39,486 bases of DNA from an uncultured Porphyromonadaceae bacterium (GTDB lineage Bacteria; Bacteroidota; Bacteroidia; Bacteroidales; Muribaculaceae), in the NCBI GenBank assembly GCA_947175605.1, contig CAMWNH010000012.1, positions 1 through 39,486 on the forward strand, given 5' to 3'. Below the pieces are notes generated by a model, which was not told the DNA's origin, did not search any database, and saw nothing but the letters and a program-made list of their open reading frames with translations. The translations under genes and the position numbers were made by a program. Shown here piece by piece: positions 13,568 to 26,976 of this stretch; the stretch's first letter is position 1; every line of letters begins with the position of its first letter.

Positions 13568-14395
13568 ATGAAACGGCGCAATATCGACTATTTTACCAAC
13601 CGGGTTTTTGAGGATGATTGTCTGAATCTTATGCCACAGATTCCGAGCAAATCCGTCGATATGATTCTGTGTGATCTTCCGTATGGCACGACGCAGAACA
13701 AATGGGACTCCGTGATTGACCTGGACGCACTATGGGCGGAATACAAGCGTATCATCAAGGACAACGGTGTGATTGTGCTCACATCGCAGGGAATCTTTAC
13801 GGCCAAGCTGATTCTGAGCAACGAGAAGTGGTTCAAATACAAATTCGTGTGGATCAAATCCAAGTCTACAAATTTCCTGAACGCCAAAAAGCAACCTCTG
13901 CGAAAACACGAGGACGTATGCGTGTTCTACAAGAAGCAGCCGGTGTATAATCCTCAGATGATACAGGGCGAGAGCTACGACAAGGGCGTACGGAAAAATC
14001 AGCTTACGGGAAGCTACGGCGATTTCCAGGCTATCCGCGTCAAGAGCGACGGCCTGAGATACCCTAACGATGTCGTATTCTTGGAGGAACAGCCCTTGGA
14101 AGACTTTCTATATATAAAGACTGCCGAGTCAGAGGGCCCCGTATATCATCCTACACAGAAGCCCGTGGAGCTTGGCCGCTACTTGATCCGCACTTACACC
14201 AACCCGGGCGATATCGTGATGGACAACGCATGCGGAAGCGGCAGCTTTCTGGTTGCCGCTGCGCTTGAAGGACGCCGTTATATAGGCATAGAAAAAAATA
14301 AGGACGCTTTACTGCATAAAGTTGAAGAGACAGACTACATAAAGGTTTGCCGCGAGCGTCTTGCAAAATGCAGGGAAGAGGAGAATCATGGCTGA
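13568..14395 (+). CDS. Site-specific DNA methyltransferase (N6-adenine, beta class)
   Basis: 275 residues. Catalytic motif IV is DLPYGTTQNKWD (DLPY at 36-39), a known variant of DPPY. The S-adenosylmethionine motif I, DNACGSGSFL, comes later (219-228) just after HPTQKP (194-199), so the order IV-then-I marks a beta-class amino-methyltransferase. The DLPYG form suggests N6-adenine rather than N4-cytosine, though this cannot be settled here. A GTG at 13472 in the same frame would start inside the guaB promoter region, so I prefer ATG 13568, which follows a -7 element. It overlaps the next gene by 8 bases. It should protect host DNA at the site cut by the downstream enzyme. The recognition sequence is not readable. 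Confidence 0.9.
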   Translation: MKRRNIDYFTNRVFEDDCLNLMPQIPSKSVDMILCDLPYGTTQNKWDSVIDLDALWAEYKRIIKDNGVIVLTSQGIFTAKLILSNEKWFKYKFVWIKSKSTNFLNAKKQPLRKHEDVCVFYKKQPVYNPQMIQGESYDKGVRKNQLTGSYGDFQAIRVKSDGLRYPNDVVFLEEQPLEDFLYIKTAESEGPVYHPTQKPVELGRYLIRTYTNPGDIVMDNACGSGSFLVAAALEGRRYIGIEKNKDALLHKVEETDYIKVCRERLAKCREEENHG

Positions 14396-17306
14396 AATCA
14401 AATGGAACGAGAGAGCATGGGCGGGCCAAATCATCGGTTGGATAAAATCAGCTATTGAAAACCGTACCACCGTCTTTCAGGACGCCACCAACGACAGCAG
14501 CCTGAAGGCGGAGACGGGACGCACGAAGTTTCCGGACATCCTGCTGTTCACGGACAAGATATCCGGTATCGTCTTCAACGGCTGGGAACTGAAATTTCCG
14601 GATACGCCGGTGGACGATCGCGAGATGCTGGAAAACGCACTCGAAAAAGCCCGCAGGCTTCAATCCGATTCGTTTGTGACATGGAACGGCATGGAAGCCG
14701 TAATATGGGGTGTGGATAAGGACCATTACAGCATCGACACGCTGACGTGCATCAAGCAGTATTCTAAAATCGAGGGCATCAACTGCCGAGAGGATATGGC
14801 TGATCGCGTATGCTACCTGAAACATGAAGCACGACTCAAGTTACAGCTTAAGGAAATACTGCATGACCTCGAACAGCTCATGCACGACGGACACCTGCGG
14901 CCGGCATTGAATATTTCGGGGAATGTTATAGACTGCGTGCGGAAAGTTGCTCAAATCATCATCCCCCAGTTTAGAGAGGCTATCATCGATGCCAAATCCG
15001 ATAATGCGGATTTCAAGGAGGCATACAACGAGTGGCGCACATATGAGAGCGCAACTCTGAAGATTCTTGAGAAATCATCACGCAAAGCGGAAAAAGTGGA
15101 TGCGGATGAGGTACTGGCCAAGTTTGCCTTCTATAACCTCACCGGCAAAATACTCTTCTATCTCACCCTTTGCGAAAATTACAGCGGGGAATTGGAGAAA
15201 CCTGTATGCACAGGCCCTGACGTGAAGGCATGCCTGAACGCATATTTCGACAGGGCTAAAGCCATAGACTTTCAGGCGATATTCAAGCCCTACTTCACGG
15301 ACGAACTGGAATACTCGACAACCGTGAACGAAACGCTTGCGGAATTGCTTGCGCGTCTCATGGAATTTGACTTCCACATACTTCCTCCCCAAGTTACCGG
15401 CAATATCCTCGAGAACCTCGTTCCCAAAGACGAAAAGCAGAAGTTCGGGCAATACTTCACTCCTGAAATCCTCGCGGATCTCGTTGCCTACCCGGCCGTG
15501 CGGACACGTAGATCCATGTTAATGGATCCTACATCCGGCACGGGGACATTTCTCAATTCGTTCTATCGCATTCTCAAGTACGATAAACATCAGACAAGCC
15601 ACAGTGCAATTCTCGAGCAGATATGGGGCAACGACATCTCGCATTTCCCGGCTATTCTTTCCGTTATTAGCCTGTACAGGCAGGACGTGACGCAGACCGA
15701 TAATTTTCCGCGAGTGCTCCGCGACAACTTCTTCAATCTTTCGCCCGGCGATAAAGTCGCACTCCCCGACTCCCGTAACCATTCCGTAAAACGTGAGGTG
15801 GAGATTCCGATGTTCGACGGCATAGCCAGCAACTTTCCTTTCATCCAGCAGGAGGATATTCCCAACAACAAGCTCACGGATTTCTTTCGCGACAAGTTCC
15901 AGTGCGAGCAGAGGAGCTTCCTGCAGAACGACAAATTCTACATCAACGAGCGCTCGGATTACTTCACATATTGCATCTACCATTCCTTCCGCTTCCTGAA
16001 GGAAGGAGGGATATTGTCGTGCATAACTTCGAATGCATGGCTTGGGAAAGCGTATGGGCAGCAATTCAAGACATTCCTTCTCGATAACTTCCACATCAAA
16101 TACATCGTGCGCAGCAATGCGGAGCATTGGTTCAGCGATTCGGCAGTATCAACCGTATTCTTCGTATTGGAAAAGAAGTCAAGCGCGGAGGGAGGAGACC
16201 GGAGAACACGCTTCGTCACGCTGAACGGGAAGCTAAGCGACCTGTTCGGGCAATCGGACCCAACAGAGCACTTCAGTGAGATAGATGATTTCTACCGACA
16301 GATCGACCAATGCGACAATCCAAATAATGTAGACTGGCACAGGGACGCAACTTTCCCGGATCTTTACAAATCCAACGACGGGAACTACAATGTGTGTATA
16401 ATTCCGGAACAGCGCTTACGGGAAGCGATCGCGGCCAAGGAAAGCTGGATGTCCTTCTTCCTTTCGTCCCATATATTTGAGGATTTCGACAGGTCCATGA
16501 CCGTGTATCATCCGCACATCGCGTGTGTGATCAGAGGCGAGAAAACAAGTTGGAACCCAATGTTCATCATTCCTCGGAATGATATTGCAGTAAGCGGTAT
16601 CGACGAAAAATATCTGCGCCCATACCTGAAAAACATGCGTAAGATAGACCGAATTGCCTTTGACGGGACCATGAACCATCGGGTTTTGATCTGCGACAAA
16701 GACATCGAAGAGCTTGATGAAGGCACTGCGGCATGGATCAGGAAGTTCGAAAACGTTTGGAACAAGAATAAAACATTCACCATTCCACAGGCATGTGGGT
16801 ATCACCGTCCTTTCTGGTACTCCATCAATCCGAAAAAAGTAGACATTATCACGGCAGTCAATCCATACAAACGATTCTTTTTCTCATATTCGGATGAATC
16901 CTTCGCTATCGATCAGCGACTCATCGGATTGCAGGTTCAAGAAAGTTATGACAAAGAACTGATAGCGGCACTGCTGAATTCCGCCATCACATTCCTTTCG
17001 CTGGAACTTCGCGGCACTCCGAGAAACCTTGGCGTGCTGGATCTTAACGCTGACTATCTGAAACGTCTGCGTATCCTCAATCCCGATATTCTTAGCGAAA
17101 AGGGCAAACAAAACATTATCGCGGCATTCCGCGCCTTGAAGTATCGTGATGTGATGGAAATTCAGGATGAAGTGAGGCAGCCTGACCGACGTCTGTTCGA
17201 TACGGCCGTATTCCGAGCCTACGGATTCGACACGGGCATGCTTCCGATGATATACGATCTACTGACAAGCGCGGTGGATGATCGGGTGTCGATGTGCGAA
17301 AAATAA
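14388..17306 (+). CDS. Fused restriction endonuclease/N6-methylase (type IIG-like, Eco57I layout)
   Basis: 972 residues. The N-terminus carries a PD-(D/E)xK nuclease core: TKFPDILLF (D50) and WELKF (E67, K69). A helical linker follows (about 110-340), then an N6-methylase domain with KFGQYFTPEILADLV (motif X), motif I DPTSGTGTF (D380) and motif IV ASNFPF (N482), where the usual NPPF/NPPY has Phe in place of the first Pro. The C-terminal 400 residues should be the target recognition domain, with TSNAWLGKAYG, LNSAITFLSLELRGTPRNLGVLDL and similar stretches typical of methylase/specificity fusions. Start chosen at 14388 because AGAGGAG stands four bases before it. It overlaps the methyltransferase gene. 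It likely cuts unmodified foreign DNA near the recognition site. Confidence 0.88.
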   Translation: MAEIKWNERAWAGQIIGWIKSAIENRTTVFQDATNDSSLKAETGRTKFPDILLFTDKISGIVFNGWELKFPDTPVDDREMLENALEKARRLQSDSFVTWNGMEAVIWGVDKDHYSIDTLTCIKQYSKIEGINCREDMADRVCYLKHEARLKLQLKEILHDLEQLMHDGHLRPALNISGNVIDCVRKVAQIIIPQFREAIIDAKSDNADFKEAYNEWRTYESATLKILEKSSRKAEKVDADEVLAKFAFYNLTGKILFYLTLCENYSGELEKPVCTGPDVKACLNAYFDRAKAIDFQAIFKPYFTDELEYSTTVNETLAELLARLMEFDFHILPPQVTGNILENLVPKDEKQKFGQYFTPEILADLVAYPAVRTRRSMLMDPTSGTGTFLNSFYRILKYDKHQTSHSAILEQIWGNDISHFPAILSVISLYRQDVTQTDNFPRVLRDNFFNLSPGDKVALPDSRNHSVKREVEIPMFDGIASNFPFIQQEDIPNNKLTDFFRDKFQCEQRSFLQNDKFYINERSDYFTYCIYHSFRFLKEGGILSCITSNAWLGKAYGQQFKTFLLDNFHIKYIVRSNAEHWFSDSAVSTVFFVLEKKSSAEGGDRRTRFVTLNGKLSDLFGQSDPTEHFSEIDDFYRQIDQCDNPNNVDWHRDATFPDLYKSNDGNYNVCIIPEQRLREAIAAKESWMSFFLSSHIFEDFDRSMTVYHPHIACVIRGEKTSWNPMFIIPRNDIAVSGIDEKYLRPYLKNMRKIDRIAFDGTMNHRVLICDKDIEELDEGTAAWIRKFENVWNKNKTFTIPQACGYHRPFWYSINPKKVDIITAVNPYKRFFFSYSDESFAIDQRLIGLQVQESYDKELIAALLNSAITFLSLELRGTPRNLGVLDLNADYLKRLRILNPDILSEKGKQNIIAAFRALKYRDVMEIQDEVRQPDRRLFDTAVFRAYGFDTGMLPMIYDLLTSAVDDRVSMCEK

Positions 17307-19745: not shown

Positions 19746-22730
19746 ATGAAACGCATTACTATAATAGCAGCTCTAATGGCTATATGCCCCGCGACGTTAG
19801 CTGCCGGTGTGCTGCCTAATCTCTACGACGGCAAAGCCACAGCTGCAAGACACTATGCCGATTCCGTCTACAATACGCTGGATGAAAACAGACGTATCGC
19901 TCAGCTGCTTTTCCCTAAGGCAATTCCCAATCGCGGGGGCATGTGGACAGCAACGCTCAAGGATTGGACGGAAAACGTGGGCGTCGGAGGCCTCCTGTTT
20001 ACGGAAGGTACGCTGGAAGAATATGCCGAGGTGACAAACTACGTGCAGAACCACACACGCGTGCCGCTTCTGATGACCTTCGACGGCGAATGGGGCCTTT
20101 CCATGCGTATCGGTGGCACTCCGCGCTTCCCTCTGAACATGACCTTAGGAGCCATTCGCAATCCCGGACTTCTCTATCGCTACGGACAGGAGATGGCACG
20201 TGAATGCCGTCTGGTGGGCGTACAGGTGAATTTCGCACCCGATCTGGATGTGAATTCCAATCCGTCCAATCCCGTGATAGGTCAGCGTTCGTTCGGAGAA
20301 GACCCGCTATGGGTTGGAAAGCTTGGTGTGGCCTACTCCCTCGGGCTTGAGGATGGCGGCGTTCAGGCCGTGGCCAAGCATTTTCCGGGACACGGCGACA
20401 CGGATGTTGACTCGCACAAGGCGCTTCCGACAGTGGACCATTCGCGCGCACGTCTGGACAGCGTGGATCTCGAGCCGTTCCGCCAATATATCGAGGCCCG
20501 ATGCTCGGGCATGATGATAGGACACATCGCTGTTCCGGCTCTTGATCCGACGGGCACTCCGGCTTCGCTGTCCAAGGCTATAAGCACCGACCTCCTGCGC
20601 AAGCAGATGGGCTTCAAAGGGCTGCTTTACACGGACGCACTTGAGATGGGTGGCGCTGATATCGGCCAGAGCGTGAACCGCGCGCTGACAGCACTGAAGG
20701 CCGGTGCGGATGTGCTTCTTTGCTCGCGGGATCCGAAACGCGACATACGCGCAATTTCCGGAGCACTTGCCGACGGGACTGTCAGCCAATCCATGCTTGC
20801 CGATCGCGTGAAGCGTATTCTTGAATATAAGTATCTTCTTGGGCTGTCGCATTGGCATCCCGTATGCACAGACACCGACTCGCTGATGCGGGAAATAGAC
20901 ACTCCGGAGTGCCGCGCTCTGATCGACGAGCTGGCAAATGCGGCCGTGACCGTGCTTTGGAACCGCGACAACATTCTGCCCCTTGGCCATCTGGACAAGA
21001 ACAGTATAGCCATCGTGAATATCGGCGAGCCAGCGTCGAACGAGTTCGCACGCTATTGCAAAAAATATGCGCCCGTGGATGTGTATGGTCTAAGCCATGC
21101 GGGAGCACTCACGGCGGACCTGAAACGGCGGATTGAGGCTCACTCAACTGTTGTCATAGCCGTGTACAAGAACGCCTCATGGGCCCATGAGGCATACGCC
21201 CAGCTAAGCGAGGGCGCGAAGAAGTCCGTTGGTGTTTTCTTCACAAGTCCTTACAAGATAGCCTCACAGGCTTCTGCTGTAAAGAAAAATGATGCAGTGA
21301 TGCTGGCTTATGAGGAGCGCGGATTCATGCAGCGTGCAGCAGCTCAGGCTCTGTTCGGAGGTATTGCGGTCGAGGGCCGTCTGCCTGTAAACATCAAGGG
21401 GGTTGCAAAAGCAGGCACCGGCGTCTCGATAGCTAAGACCCGTCTTGGCTATGGCTCACCTTTGAGTGTGGGCATGCAGGCATCGCTCACCGATAGCCTC
21501 GATGCAGTAATTAAAAAAGCCCTCGCAGCGAAAGCAATTCCGGGAGCGCAGCTTCTGGTGGCACGCAAGGGTGTTGTGGTGCACGACAAGAATTATGGGC
21601 ACACAACAGCCGGAGGGCCGGTAGTTACGGATGCCACGGTCTACGATCTGGCCTCCGTGTCCAAGGCACTGGGTACACTGCCCGGTATAATGAAAGCTTA
21701 TGACCTCGGGCTGCTGGCTCTCGAAGACACCCTCGGAGCACTACTGCCCGGCATACGCGACACGGCTAAAACCGGCATAAACGTGCGCCAACTTCTATAT
21801 CATGAGACAGGGATGCCCGCTTCGCTGAATGTATTCGCAGCCATGTTCGATCCGGAATCTTACAGCGGAACACTGACATCCTCGCGGCGCGATGCAGCCC
21901 ATCCCATAAAGGTTCAGAACCGCGTGTGGGGCAACCGCACGGCGCGCCTGCGTCATGACTTGTCGCGTCACCGTCCCTCCCCGTCGTTCGATGTCGAAGC
22001 TGCGAAGGAAATATATGTAGGTCAGGTAACAATAGATACTCTTATGCAGCGGATATATGACATTCCGCTGCGTAAAAACCGCGACTACAACTACTCCTGT
22101 CTTAATTTCTGCATGCTCATGAAGGCCGAGGAAGGTCGGACGGGCGTGCGGCACGACCGATGGGTCACCGATTCGATATACGCTCCCTTAGGTGCATCGC
22201 GCATAGTCTATCGTCCGCTTGAATCGGGGATTGCCCTCGCCGAAATCGCACCGACTGAACATGATACTTTTTTGCGCAAACAGACCGTTCACGGCTATGT
22301 GCATGACGAACTGGCAGCTTTCTCGGGTGGCATACAGGGTAATGCCGGCCTGTTCGGGAATGTGACGGACCTTGCAAAGGTGTGCCAGATGTGGCTTGAC
22401 GGCGGCAAGTACGGCGACGCCCGCGTGCTCGGCAAGGAAACGGTGGAACTTTTCACCACGGATAAGAGTCCGACATGCCGCCGCGGTCTTGGCTTCGACA
22501 AACCGGACACTGAAAATCCCGACAACTCCCCGACATGCGAGGAAGCCGGTGCGGAGGTCTTCGGGCATCTCGGCTTTACGGGCACAGTTTTCTGGGTAGA
22601 CCCCAAGGAGGAACTGATATTCATCTTCCTGACCAACCGCGTGAACCCGACACGCGACAACGCTGAATTTTCCAAACTCAATATCCGCCCCGAGCTTTTC
22701 CGTCAGACTCTAAAATCCATAACAAAGTAA
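19746..22730 (+). CDS. GH3 beta-N-acetylglucosaminidase fused to a class-C beta-lactamase-like serine hydrolase
   Basis: 994 residues with a signal peptide (1-20). Residues about 40-370 form a NagZ-type GH3 domain: KHFPGHGDTDVDSH (from 211) is the family signature carrying the catalytic His, and YTDALEMGG holds the Asp nucleophile D297. Residues about 370-580 form the second GH3 alpha/beta domain. From about 590 a serine-hydrolase domain follows, with SVSK (S637, K640) as SxxK, YNYSCLNF as the Tyr motif and GHLGFTGT as the third element. The pairing suggests cleavage of GlcNAc-MurNAc fragments plus removal of an ester or peptide group during peptidoglycan turnover. The substrate is inference. 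Fused GH3/serine-hydrolase enzymes occur in other Bacteroidota. It precedes the Fic gene by five bases. Confidence 0.9.
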   Translation: MKRITIIAALMAICPATLAAGVLPNLYDGKATAARHYADSVYNTLDENRRIAQLLFPKAIPNRGGMWTATLKDWTENVGVGGLLFTEGTLEEYAEVTNYVQNHTRVPLLMTFDGEWGLSMRIGGTPRFPLNMTLGAIRNPGLLYRYGQEMARECRLVGVQVNFAPDLDVNSNPSNPVIGQRSFGEDPLWVGKLGVAYSLGLEDGGVQAVAKHFPGHGDTDVDSHKALPTVDHSRARLDSVDLEPFRQYIEARCSGMMIGHIAVPALDPTGTPASLSKAISTDLLRKQMGFKGLLYTDALEMGGADIGQSVNRALTALKAGADVLLCSRDPKRDIRAISGALADGTVSQSMLADRVKRILEYKYLLGLSHWHPVCTDTDSLMREIDTPECRALIDELANAAVTVLWNRDNILPLGHLDKNSIAIVNIGEPASNEFARYCKKYAPVDVYGLSHAGALTADLKRRIEAHSTVVIAVYKNASWAHEAYAQLSEGAKKSVGVFFTSPYKIASQASAVKKNDAVMLAYEERGFMQRAAAQALFGGIAVEGRLPVNIKGVAKAGTGVSIAKTRLGYGSPLSVGMQASLTDSLDAVIKKALAAKAIPGAQLLVARKGVVVHDKNYGHTTAGGPVVTDATVYDLASVSKALGTLPGIMKAYDLGLLALEDTLGALLPGIRDTAKTGINVRQLLYHETGMPASLNVFAAMFDPESYSGTLTSSRRDAAHPIKVQNRVWGNRTARLRHDLSRHRPSPSFDVEAAKEIYVGQVTIDTLMQRIYDIPLRKNRDYNYSCLNFCMLMKAEEGRTGVRHDRWVTDSIYAPLGASRIVYRPLESGIALAEIAPTEHDTFLRKQTVHGYVHDELAAFSGGIQGNAGLFGNVTDLAKVCQMWLDGGKYGDARVLGKETVELFTTDKSPTCRRGLGFDKPDTENPDNSPTCEEAGAEVFGHLGFTGTVFWVDPKEELIFIFLTNRVNPTRDNAEFSKLNIRPELFRQTLKSITK

Positions 22731-22735
22731 TCCCC

Positions 22736-23608
22736 ATGAGTAAGAAGTCTATACGATTTTTTAATGATCGTGAGGTGAGGGCGGTATGGGATGACGAGAA
22801 CAACTGCTGGTGGTTTTCGGCAACGGATATTGTGCGCGCTATCAATGATGAGCCCGACTATACAAAGGCCGGCAACTATTGGCGCTGGCTGAAAAGGAAA
22901 CTTAAACAGGATGGAGTTCAGTTCGTGAGTGGCACTCACAAACTGAAAATTGTTGCAGCCGATGGTAAGAGGTATAACAGCGATGCACTTTCTGCAAATG
23001 ATATAATCATTCTCGCCAATCACTATCCAAACAATCGTGCAGCCCAGTTCCTTAATTGGTTCACATACAGCGATAACACTATTGATGGACAAAGTCGTAA
23101 AAAAGCGTACACGCTGTTTGAAAGCGGACTGCTCAACTCGCTTGAGCCCGGAAGTATGAAATGCCTGCAGCAGATACATGCCTATCTGTTTGGCGGCTTA
23201 TATGATTTTGCCGGACAAATCAGGAACAAGAATATTTCGAAAGGCGGCTTCACCTTTGCCAACTGTCTTCATTTTCCCACAGTCATTCCCACGATTGAAA
23301 GGATGCCGGAAACCACACTCGATGAGATTGCAGACAAATACGTGGAGATGAATGTCGTACATCCATTCATGGAAGGAAACGGACGCAGCACTCGCATATG
23401 GCTTGACCTGATGTTGAGACGTTCGTTGAAACGATGTGTGGACTGGAGCCGAATCGATAAGAATGAATATCTGAATGCCATGCGGGAAAGCGTGGTTGAT
23501 TCAACCCACATAAAAGCCCTGCTGAAAGGTGCGCTGACCGACAAGATCAACGATCGCGAAATGTTCATGAAAGGAATCGACTACTCATACTACTACGAGG
23601 AAGAGTAG
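22736..23608 (+). CDS. Fic family adenylyltransferase with BRO-like N-terminal domain
   Basis: 290 residues. Residues 1-100 resemble the BRO-N/antirepressor fold found in phage and mobile-element proteins (RFFNDREVRAVWD, WWFSATDIVRAINDEPDYTK, YWRWLKRKLKQDG). Residues about 120-290 are a Fic domain close to the class-I toxin type: YDFAGQIRNKNISKGGFTFAN (flap) and the complete HPFMEGNGRSTR motif from H209. The tail GIDYSYYYEEE is also typical. Fic enzymes move AMP from ATP onto Tyr, Thr or Ser of target proteins. The usual inhibitory motif (S/T)xxxE(G/N) is not found in the protein, and no small antitoxin gene is adjacent. It lies five bases after the GH3 gene. Three hand-counted lines suggest 40-45% GC here against about 58% just upstream, a sign of transfer. 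Confidence 0.9.
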   Translation: MSKKSIRFFNDREVRAVWDDENNCWWFSATDIVRAINDEPDYTKAGNYWRWLKRKLKQDGVQFVSGTHKLKIVAADGKRYNSDALSANDIIILANHYPNNRAAQFLNWFTYSDNTIDGQSRKKAYTLFESGLLNSLEPGSMKCLQQIHAYLFGGLYDFAGQIRNKNISKGGFTFANCLHFPTVIPTIERMPETTLDEIADKYVEMNVVHPFMEGNGRSTRIWLDLMLRRSLKRCVDWSRIDKNEYLNAMRESVVDSTHIKALLKGALTDKINDREMFMKGIDYSYYYEEE

Positions 23609-23691: not shown

Positions 23692-26600
23692 ATGATTATG
23701 AAAAAACCAATCATACTCCTCATGGCCGTCGGGGCTTCGCTGCTGACGGCAAGTGCAGCCGGAAAAAGCGATGGATCGCCGATGTGGCTGCGCGACGCAA
23801 AGATTTCGCCTGACGGCAAAAACATCGTATTCACCTATAAAGGTGATATTTACCGTGTTCCTGCGGCAGGAGGCGAGGCCGTGCGCCTGACCACACGCGA
23901 CAGCTACGAGCAGATGCCCGTATGGAGCCCCGACGGCCGCAAGATTGCGTTCGCATCGGACCGCAACGGCAATTTCGATATTTTCGTAATTTCCTCGGAA
24001 AATCCGGGTGCGTGGCAACGTCTGACCTACAATTCGGCTAACGAACTACCCGAGAGCTTCACTCCCGACGGCAAGGCCGTGCTATTCTCGGCATCCATCC
24101 AGGACCCCGCATCGAGCGCCCTCTACCCCTCGGGACGCATGACGGAGCTTTATCGCGTAGAACTCTCCGGGGGTGCACCGAAACAGATGCTCCCTACCCC
24201 GGTGAAGGCCGTGAGCTTTATGCCTGACGGAAAAAGTTTCCTATATCAGGACGTAAAGAGCTTCGAGGACGAATTCCGCAAGCATCATACGTCGTCAGCA
24301 ACAAGAGATATCTGGCTCTACGACCGCACGACCGGCAAGCATCGTCAGCTCATGGACCGCCCCGGTGAGGACCTGAATCCGGCAGCTGCGGAAAACGGCG
24401 ACTTCTACTTCCTGAGTGAGCGCGAAGGCGACAAGAGCATAAACGTATGGCGCAGCAATACGACGGACGCATCGAAAGCCGAACGCGTGACCAACTTCAA
24501 GACGCATCCCGTGCGCTTCCTTTCGCGTGCCAATAACGGCCGCCTGGCCTTTACATGGGACGGTGAGCTCTACACGCTTGAACCCGGGGCCAAGAAGCCC
24601 GCGAAGGTTGCCGTGAGCATTGATGCCGACCAGAACGAGGAACTGCGCAAGCTTAGCTCCGGCTCCGGAGCACGGCAGCCCGCTGCCTCTCCCGACGGCA
24701 AAAACGTGGCTTTCATCTACCGTGGTGATGTGTACGTGACCTCCACGGACTACAAGACCACCAAGCAGATAAGCAATACAGCAGAAGCGGAAGGCGATGT
24801 TGCATGGGGCGACGATACGACCCTCTACTATACGAGCGAACGCGACGGGAAATTCAATATCTACAAGGCTACCATTGCCCGCAGCGATGACGAGCCTTCC
24901 TTCCCTTATGCGACTACAATCGTTGAAGAAGCGATGTTCAAGCCCGACGGGCACGAGCGCATGATGCCCCAGATCTCTCCCGACGGGAAGAGCATGGCAT
25001 TTATCATGGACCGTACGAAGCTGGCTGTAATGGACCTCAAGAGTAAGAAGGTGCGCATGCTTACGGACGGTTCCACGGACCGCGGCCGTTCGGGAGGATT
25101 CAACTTCCGCTGGAGTCCGGACTCGAAATGGATTGCCATGGAGGTTATACCTCGCAAGCACGATCCGTATGCCGACATCGCCATCATGAATGTGGAGAGC
25201 GGCGAGATTACGAATCTCACGAACAGCGGCTACTTCGATCTGGATCCGCGCTGGGTGCTGGACGGCAACGCCATCATTTTCGAAAGCGAGCGCTATGGCA
25301 TGCGCAATCATGCATCGTGGGGCTCGGAATCGGACGTGATGATCGTGTTCATGAACCAGAAGGCTTACGACGATTTCAAGCGCGACAAGCAGGAGGCCGA
25401 GCTCGACGAGGCCATCGAGAAGCTCCACAAGAAAAAGGAGAAGGAAAAGGATGATGCCGAAAAGAAAGACGACAAGAAAAAGGACGACAAAAAGAATGAC
25501 GAAAAGTCGACGTCCAAGGATATCAATGTCGAGCTTGCGGGCATCACTGACCGCATTGAGCGTCTGACGCCTATCTCCACGCGACTCAACGACAAGGTGT
25601 TCAGCGCCGACGGCAAGACGCTTTGGTTTATTTGCCGTACGCCTGAGGGCGCGGCACTCTGGAGCGTAGATCTTCTGGACGGGGATGTGGCGCGCAAGTC
25701 GAAACTGCCGAGCGGCTCGACTTTCTTCACTTCGCCCGACGGCAAACATCTGTTTGTAAACGGCCGAGGCCTGAACAAGCTCAAGGACGGCAAGACTACA
25801 GCGATTAGTTTTGAGGCCGAGAAACTGCTTGACCCTGCAGCCGAGCGGGAATTCATGTTCGACAATGTCGTGCGCGAAGAGGCCGAACGATTCTATGTGG
25901 CCGATATGCACGGCGTGGACTGGCCTGCAATGACAGCCGCGTATCGCAAATTCCTGCCCCACATCAACAACAATTACGACTTTGCCGAACTGATGAGCGA
26001 AATGCTGGGCGAACTGAACGTGAGCCATACCGGCGGCAGATACAGCGGCGGTGGTCGTTCATACAATCCGTCGCGTACGGCATCGCTGGGTGCGCTCTAC
26101 GACCTTAACTATACGGGCAAGGGCGTGAAAATCGAGGAGATTCTGGAACAGGGCCCGCTCTTCGGCAAGGGAATCGAGGCCGGAACTATCATCGAGAAGG
26201 TGAACGGCGAAGAAATCCTGCCGGAAAATGACCTGACACTTCTTCTTGACGGAGCCGCAGGCAAACGTACGCTTCTGACCCTCCGCGCACCCGGAGCCAA
26301 GGAAACGACGGAGCTCGTGGTGAAACCCATCTCGGCTGGAGAACAGAGCGAACTTCTCTACAAGCGCTGGGTTGACGCCCGCGCCGCTGACGTTGACCGT
26401 TGGAGCAACGGACGTCTTGGATACGTGCACATCAGCTCGATGAACGACGACAGTTTCCGTAAGGTTTATTCCGACCTATTGGGCAAATATAACGACCGTG
26501 AGGGCGTAGTGATAGACATACGCTGGAACGGTGGCGGCCGCTTGCACGAGGACATAGAGGTGCTCTTCTCCGGCGAGAAGTATTTCACGCAGGAAATCCG

Positions 26601-26976
26601 AGGCGACGAGACATGCGACATGCCCTCGCGCCGCTGGAACAAGCCTTCAATAATGGTTATGAGCGAGGCCTGCTACTCCAATGCCCACGGAACGCCATGG
26701 GTGTATAAGCATAAAAACATCGGCAAGCTCGTGGGTATGCCGGTGGCCGGCACCATGACGAGTGTGAACTGGGTGACGATGCAGGATCCGACACTCGTTT
26801 ACGGTATCCCCGTGATCGGCTACCGTCTCCCCGACGGCTCCTTCCTCGAGAATCAGCAGCTCGAGCCCGACATCAAAGTTGCAAATGCACCCGAGAGCGT
26901 CGCAGCCGGCGAGGACACTCAGCTGCGGACGGCTGTCGAGGAACTACTGCGTGAACTTCCGGCCAAGAAAAAGTGA
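23692..26976 (+). CDS. Secreted tricorn-like S41 family protease
   Basis: 1094 residues with a signal peptide (MKKPIILLMAVGASLLTASAAG; ATG at 23692 or 23698). Two WD40/TolB-like beta-propellers fill about 25-660, visible as repeated (S)PDGKxIxF and SPDGRKIAFASDRNGNFDIF units. A very charged Lys/Glu/Asp linker (about 579-612) interrupts the second. A PDZ domain (about 800-880) precedes the S41 catalytic core, with RWNGGGRLHEDI and the nucleophile in ACYSNAHG (S996). Tricorn in archaea is a cytosolic peptidase that finishes proteasome products; here the signal peptide puts it in the periplasm, where it would degrade peptides. Its stop overlaps the aroE start. Confidence 0.92.
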   Translation: MIMKKPIILLMAVGASLLTASAAGKSDGSPMWLRDAKISPDGKNIVFTYKGDIYRVPAAGGEAVRLTTRDSYEQMPVWSPDGRKIAFASDRNGNFDIFVISSENPGAWQRLTYNSANELPESFTPDGKAVLFSASIQDPASSALYPSGRMTELYRVELSGGAPKQMLPTPVKAVSFMPDGKSFLYQDVKSFEDEFRKHHTSSATRDIWLYDRTTGKHRQLMDRPGEDLNPAAAENGDFYFLSEREGDKSINVWRSNTTDASKAERVTNFKTHPVRFLSRANNGRLAFTWDGELYTLEPGAKKPAKVAVSIDADQNEELRKLSSGSGARQPAASPDGKNVAFIYRGDVYVTSTDYKTTKQISNTAEAEGDVAWGDDTTLYYTSERDGKFNIYKATIARSDDEPSFPYATTIVEEAMFKPDGHERMMPQISPDGKSMAFIMDRTKLAVMDLKSKKVRMLTDGSTDRGRSGGFNFRWSPDSKWIAMEVIPRKHDPYADIAIMNVESGEITNLTNSGYFDLDPRWVLDGNAIIFESERYGMRNHASWGSESDVMIVFMNQKAYDDFKRDKQEAELDEAIEKLHKKKEKEKDDAEKKDDKKKDDKKNDEKSTSKDINVELAGITDRIERLTPISTRLNDKVFSADGKTLWFICRTPEGAALWSVDLLDGDVARKSKLPSGSTFFTSPDGKHLFVNGRGLNKLKDGKTTAISFEAEKLLDPAAEREFMFDNVVREEAERFYVADMHGVDWPAMTAAYRKFLPHINNNYDFAELMSEMLGELNVSHTGGRYSGGGRSYNPSRTASLGALYDLNYTGKGVKIEEILEQGPLFGKGIEAGTIIEKVNGEEILPENDLTLLLDGAAGKRTLLTLRAPGAKETTELVVKPISAGEQSELLYKRWVDARAADVDRWSNGRLGYVHISSMNDDSFRKVYSDLLGKYNDREGVVIDIRWNGGGRLHEDIEVLFSGEKYFTQEIRGDETCDMPSRRWNKPSIMVMSEACYSNAHGTPWVYKHKNIGKLVGMPVAGTMTSVNWVTMQDPTLVYGIPVIGYRLPDGSFLENQQLEPDIKVANAPESVAAGEDTQLRTAVEELLRELPAKKK

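Follow-up and report, generated by a model that had tools for sequence, protein, structure and literature searches.

The window analyzed here is a stretch of 39,486 nucleotides (contig CAMWNH010000012.1, assembly GCA_947175605.1) from an uncultured Porphyromonadaceae gut bacterium of the order Bacteroidales, and it carries at positions 22736–23608 an intact open reading frame of 290 codons (GC 0.457; this and all window features below lie on the forward strand) whose 290-residue product joins a BRO-N-like domain to a Fic domain. The BRO-N-like domain (a predicted sensor), assigned by profile and fold, takes up residues 1–112 (22736–23071) and is followed at residues 115–289 (23078–23602) by a class III Fic domain of the NmFic type, which includes the catalytic motif HPFMEGNGRSTR at residues 209–220 (23360–23395) and, near its C-terminus, the inhibitory motif S284-YYY-E288 (23585–23599). 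The two domains contrast in charge, the first being basic (pI 9.3) and the second acidic (pI 6.1), and the predicted structure of the whole protein has a mean pLDDT of 79.9. A chance open frame was rejected, as Fic is found in all 52 sequences of the family alignment (the window protein and 51 others sharing 66–94% identity with it) and the family can be aligned from end to end.

The initial annotation had recognized the C-terminal Fic domain from its motif, and this is borne out by Pfam (E 7.8e-12), by the NCBIfam NmFic equivalog NF046029 (264.1 bits against a cut-off of 230), by a sequence match to the NmFic chains in the PDB (E 2.3e-62) and by the predicted fold, which overlays NmFic (5cmt) at 1.3 Å over 170 alignment columns with 55% identity. 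The motif, which reads HPFMEGNGR at its core, conforms to the class III consensus HPFx(D/E)GNGRxxR, and H209, E213, G214–R217 and R220 are invariant across the 52 family sequences. The inhibitory helix of class III proteins carries the motif S/T-xxx-E-G/N. In the family S284, Y285, Y286 and E288 are likewise invariant, and a gap-free alignment equates S284–E288 with S182–E186 of NmFic (numbering inferred from the entry titles S182A/E186A and E186G and from literature text), such that the window protein agrees with the motif except at its last position, where E288 is followed by another glutamate.

Class III Fic proteins are described as single-domain proteins held inactive by their own glutamate (PMC6408439), and in this respect the fusion differs from NmFic, HpFic and EfFic, with which it shares the catalytic motif and the S-xxx-E helix, in that a 112-residue domain precedes its Fic domain. 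The window protein is therefore a two-domain relative of class III rather than a plain member of it. SoFic, a class II enzyme, is also a single-protein Fic and is reported to cause abortive infection via AMPylation, but its inhibitory helix is N-terminal and its C-terminal domain is of another kind (PMC12249575); the PADLOC model of SoFic covers just residues 200–229 of the window protein, and does so weakly. A class I FicT-FicA pair was rejected because the spacing, 5 bp to a 994-residue gene upstream and an 83-bp gap downstream, leaves no room for an adjacent antitoxin gene of 60 residues (shorter frames and the opposite strand were not examined), and since the inhibitory helix lies in the same protein, a separate antitoxin gene would not be needed.

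BRO-N domains are known chiefly from viruses and phage antirepressors, and their mechanism is little understood. The N-terminus had been likened to them by eye, with a profile search and a predicted structure proposed as checks, and both returned a likeness to BRO-N rather than the absence of any DNA-binding fold. Bro-N (PF02498) is the top Pfam match, at residues 13–110, scoring 21.9 bits with the whole protein, 24.7 with the N-terminus alone and 24.1 in the genome search against a gathering cut-off of 25.6, and because the score falls just below this cut-off the domain is named BRO-N-like. Within the family, the Bro-N profile is matched by 41 of the 52 members, including the window protein, at E ≤ 0.01 (best 1.1e-7). 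A fold search with the predicted model of the domain (mean pLDDT 82.9) gave 14 viral models at E ≤ 0.001, nine of them named BRO, Bro-N, repressor-domain or antirepressor, three nameless, one ‘uncharacterized’ and one ‘ALI motif’, which places the predicted structure in the BRO-N type of fold. The best fold neighbors in the PDB include the DNA-binding domains of Mbp1, PCG2-DNA and Dachshund and the DNA-damage protein DdrC, as well as a granulovirus Orf22 domain, Ski and Bqt4. Searches of the PDB by sequence with this domain gave chance-level matches only, SH2 domains for example. Helix 42–58 contains six basic and no acidic residues, which points to a putative nucleic acid-binding role for the domain.

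Viral BRO proteins and phage antirepressors thus resemble the N-domain in fold and by a profile score near the cut-off, and two of six matching phage records match the N-domain only (31–37% identity), but none of the six covers 80% of the fusion. That the gene is phage-borne was rejected on this basis and because pattern-led scans of viral contigs yielded no protein related to the fusion or to its N-domain; the two N-domain-only phage records, together with one viral contig that carries an N-domain relative of the PDC-S13 type, count against this rejection. PDC-S13 (PADLOC model PDLC04920; perhaps DinD-like) has the same N-terminal domain as the fusion but a C-terminal half that is not Fic. 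In a set of four proteins its N-domain is 36% identical to that of the window protein over 107 residues (E 2.2e-23), the PDC-S13 model matches window residues 1–109 (E 1.2e-22), and the model of the fusion matches residues 1–112 of a PDC-S13 protein (E 3.8e-34). The PDC-S13 C-terminus faintly resembles Escherichia coli DinD (blastp E 0.006, same set), and DinD itself was dropped as a relative of the N-domain (profile E 0.036, same set). PDC-S13 proteins (our loci L183–L190 and L302–L331) are frequent: at E ≤ 1e-60, 75 of 295 genomes from the order have at least one, and a single genome can give up to seven matches.

The fusion is not new as an architecture, being widespread and having a PADLOC model of its own, and the rarity that the initial annotation implied did not hold. 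The model in question, PDLC04841 of the phage-defense candidate PDC-S04, spans residues 2–290 of 290 (E 1.5e-164), whereas the remaining PDC-S04 models match the Fic part alone, and therefore the PDC-S04 label mixes solo and fused Fic proteins. In a sample of the order, 163 of 393 genomes match at E ≤ 1e-10 and 67 have an end-to-end match (first matched residue ≤ 3, last ≥ 288; 69 matches in total), the window genome being included in these counts as it is in the genus sample, where 4 of 41 genomes have an end-to-end match and one further match is cut by a contig end. Across a phylum sample the NmFic family exceeds its cut-off at 24 places in 23 of 395 genomes, 13 of them fused and 11 without a visible N-domain (one of the latter lies at a contig start and is undecided). 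At least 572 relatives were found on GTDB contigs, of which the best 80 were kept, with titles that include Bacteroidales, Lentisphaerae and Kiritimatiellae, and one of 1329 plasmid records, Treponema pTS1, covers 80% or more of the fusion. In a tree of 63 Fic domains built by a quick method, a single branch (SH-aLRT 98) parts 45 fused rows from 18 solo rows, so that the fused domains occupy one side of it, and this is consistent with a single fusion followed by transfer.

Searches of the literature for Fic together with Bro-N, antirepressor or architecture found no paper describing the fusion; they did not cover the preprint that introduced the PDC candidates (10.1101/2024.01.29.577857), where a prior description is possible. 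No BRO domain was found in the accessible text of a 2015 survey of AMPylating enzymes, and no activity of the fused form was found in the accessible parts of the literature on PDC-S04 and PDC-S13.

The site occupied by the gene in the window is otherwise a core one. The fusion gene begins 5 bp past the stop codon of a gene for a glycoside hydrolase family 3 protein with a beta-lactamase-type domain (19746–22730) and is followed by a gene for a tricorn-like S41 protease (23692–26976), and in a sister genome, G424, these two neighbors lie side by side, about 175 bp apart, and the fusion gene is absent there. The neighbor products are 79% and 86% identical to their G424 counterparts, and elsewhere G424 has only a fragment that matches residues 147–242 and contains an internal stop. 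The GC contrast (0.457 against 0.559 and 0.563 in the two neighbors) makes a gain in the window genome more likely than a loss in G424. A second accessory gene, for a type IIG restriction enzyme-methyltransferase (14361–17306; PADLOC PDLC03606, E 7.9e-126; GC 0.49), lies 5.4 kb upstream of the fusion gene. At E ≤ 1e-50 the window genome alone has it among 49 from the genus, and the genes on its two sides, for IMP dehydrogenase and DUF2400, are direct neighbors in G424. These are two separate accessory insertions close together, one of which is a restriction enzyme; the window copy of the fusion lies 5.4 kb from it and is not embedded.

At the DNA level the closest relative shows 84% similarity to the window gene, and among the matches listed the similarity starts no farther than 16 bp upstream of the start codon and breaks off within a few bases of the stop codon; the window gene therefore brings no shared operator with it. 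Longer flanks are common to some other pairs of relatives, such as loci L003/L007/L015 and L008/L011. When reverse-complemented, the corresponding place in L011 (6182–6212) and in L005 matches a 31-bp stretch of the gene (bases 182–212, window 22917–22947) at 94–97%. Partial copies of the first 100–160 bp of the fusion gene precede RhuM and another gene in L003 (2881–2983, 4828–4948), L007 (240–399, 949–1051, 2943–3042) and L009 (3376–3520), with breakpoints that recur near codons 34 and 48, an arrangement that looks as though cargo genes had come in together with another complete copy of the fusion. In four loci from Prevotella-type genomes (L026, L044, L048, L051) a relaxase gene, a 220-residue gene, a primase-like gene and a VapE-like gene precede the fusion gene, which suggests that it is carried on mobilizable islands in several such genomes.

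Neighborhoods were compared in three sets: the best 80 GTDB loci with flanks of up to 6 kb, 60 loci taken from the order sample with flanks of at most 8 kb, and 60 controls, each a 16.9-kb stretch. The 60 sample loci are the best-scoring of the 68 full-length matches besides the window’s own, some of them cut by contig ends, and have three genes in common with the 80-locus set; the controls were placed by hand at round coordinates in 27 of the same 60 genomes. Seven neighbor-gene profiles were built from clusters in the same loci and are for that reason slightly foreign to the control stretches; the cluster representatives were confirmed by Pfam. Restriction-modification genes (HsdR, HsdM, HsdS or an N6_N4-type methylase) lie near 26 of the 80 closest copies and 7 of the 60 sample copies against none of the 60 controls (one-sided Fisher p 6e-8 and 0.006, respectively). 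The corresponding counts are 19, 6 and 0 for type I genes alone and 31, 10 and 1 when RhuM, the DUF1016/YhcG nuclease and Abi_C are added, and the sample loci are on average shorter than the controls, which works against the observed excess. On the Treponema plasmid pTS1 the fusion gene overlaps the stop codon of HsdS by one base, at the end of a run consisting of HsdR, an ATPase, HsdM, an HTH gene, ORF6N, HsdS and Fic. An obligate place in a type I restriction operon was nevertheless rejected, as no HsdS was found in the window’s own genome and 54 of the 60 sample loci have no type I genes. A different Fic protein, PDC-S72, shares restriction loci with the fusion gene in L022 (4875–5966) and L077 (9734–10900).

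Co-variation in the family is concentrated in a patch of the N-domain with two halves, one at residues 45–54 (22868–22897; positions 45, 46, 50, 51 and 54) on the basic helix and the other at residues 68–72 (22937–22951) on strand 65–73. Among 12,403 column pairs scored for mutual information (45 representatives under 85% identity), the pair 50–51 comes out on top (z 8.6); of the 25 best pairs, 21 fall inside the N-domain, 19 of these among positions 45, 46, 50, 51, 54, 68, 69 and 72. At positions 50, 51 and 68, the 105 distinct full-length proteins read R-W-H (62), K-Y-N (23), K-Y-T (19) or K-Y-H (1). In the 60-locus sample, which is only partly independent with 29 loci overlapping the 105 proteins, 58 loci fit one of the main states, one is K-Y-H and one is S-V-S; the 31 new loci hardly test the coupling, as they comprise 30 K-Y-N/T, one S-V-S and no R-W-H. 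The S-V-S protein (L251, 8001–8852) is fused and has a three-residue gap at 46–48, and the V-S pairing is otherwise seen in PDC-S13, where 39 rows (some genes occurring twice) read, at residues 51 and 68, K-H (14), V-N (12), V-S (4), A-G (4), D-G (3), V-K (1) and K-T (1).

On the Fic-domain tree, which is quick and poorly resolved, 19 changes of patch state are counted in the best topology, and the starred branches provide four independent pairs of which three or four agree depending on pairing (median p 0.125, not significant). Among 19 close relatives, residues 57–100 exist in two forms, with a mean dN of 0.197 against 0.020 for residues 1–56 and 0.039 for the Fic domain, a rough comparison in that dS exceeds 1 and the 57–100 border was chosen after the alignment had been viewed. 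No association between patch state and type I genes emerged (72 of 80 loci in the closest set; Fisher p 0.37). The patch has two main states, which were apparently switched repeatedly on a conserved effector, and a constant effector with a varying putative sensor is what would be expected of a recognition domain, although a packing constraint alone could also account for it.

The reading favored here, tentatively and at slightly less than an even chance, is that the fusion gene encodes a horizontally spread, single-gene, self-inhibited AMPylating stasis or defense protein that is triggered through its BRO-N sensor. The sensor would bind a signal arising upon invasion or DNA damage, most likely DNA or a partner attached to it, while the NmFic-type domain would be held off by its own C-terminal helix, in the manner of NmFic and EfFic, until ligand on BRO-N alters its oligomeric or inhibited state. 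The released Fic domain may then AMPylate a target in the cell, most plausibly GyrB or ParE, so that replication would halt in the affected cell, with abortive infection or stasis as the putative benefit, and variation in the helix-strand patch would change what BRO-N recognizes while the effector stays constant. AMPylation coupled to DNA binding or to the sensing of an invading element, as the initial annotation proposed, would be part of such a mechanism. NmFic is reported to AMPylate gyrase and itself (PMC6408439, PMC12894286), and GyrB and ParE are among the reported targets of characterized Fic proteins (PMC12894286, PMC7479194); for the Fic proteins tested from Streptococcus pneumoniae, one of class III among them, the accessible text reports no detectable modification of ParE (PMC7479194). 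Weighing against a defense role are the majority of copies without restriction-modification genes nearby, including 50 of the 60 sample copies without any of the defense families tested, and the deletion of a PDC-S04 gene in its native host, for which the available text reports no measurable effect on defense (PMC12409345).

Those 50 sample copies would also suit a self-regulating, selfish unit of the toxin-antitoxin kind, in which BRO-N binds the gene’s own promoter or an antirepressor-like partner and controls merely expression or activity, with defense at most a by-product. This appears improbable, though the fusion gene is found in unrelated neighborhoods and BRO-N antirepressors are reported to pair with Xre repressors in phage gene pairs that resemble toxin-antitoxin systems (PMC2701414), since the restriction-modification genes exceed the control and the window gene, unlike some relatives with longer shared flanks, brings no shared operator with it. 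Rather unlikely too is a targeting role, where BRO-N would deliver Fic to DNA and let it modify, in place, an enzyme bound there (gyrase, topoisomerase IV, the replisome or phage proteins), and would not act as a trigger. The basic N-domain beside an acidic Fic domain fits such a role, as does the fact that GyrB and ParE, both known Fic targets, act on DNA, but solo NmFic is reported to modify gyrase without such a domain, and sharp co-variation of the patch between two states is not what a pure tether would lead one to expect. Least probable, and very doubtful, is that the patch is a mere packing solution in which helix and strand must match, with no link to ligand choice, in an ordinary stress-response Fic enzyme: positions 51, 70 and 72 include aromatic or hydrophobic swaps (W/Y, F/L) that could reflect core packing, but 46, 50 and 54 share one helix face with changes of charge (mostly G, R, K/R against R, K, A/N/T/G) and look exposed, as does 69 (mostly D/E/G against Q), and PDC-S13 N-domains couple 51 and 68 with other residue sets.

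An extension of the sensor-triggered defense reading, which we think unlikely, is that BRO-N acts as a recognition module that can be switched while the AMPylating effector stays fixed, with G46-R50-W51-H68, R46-K50-Y51-N/T68 and the rarer S50-V51-S68 as recognition classes that were swapped repeatedly, the same positions being coupled, with further residue sets, in PDC-S13. If true, bacterial defense would use BRO-N as a general sensor domain for invaders or lesions, Fic being one of its several outputs. Through the widespread fusion to an AMPylating toxin domain, whatever BRO-N detects is given an output that can be read, and the patch in its natural states supplies matched proteins with which its ligand might be found. 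Should BRO-N sense invader DNA, that would account for the activation of a self-inhibited class III Fic protein.
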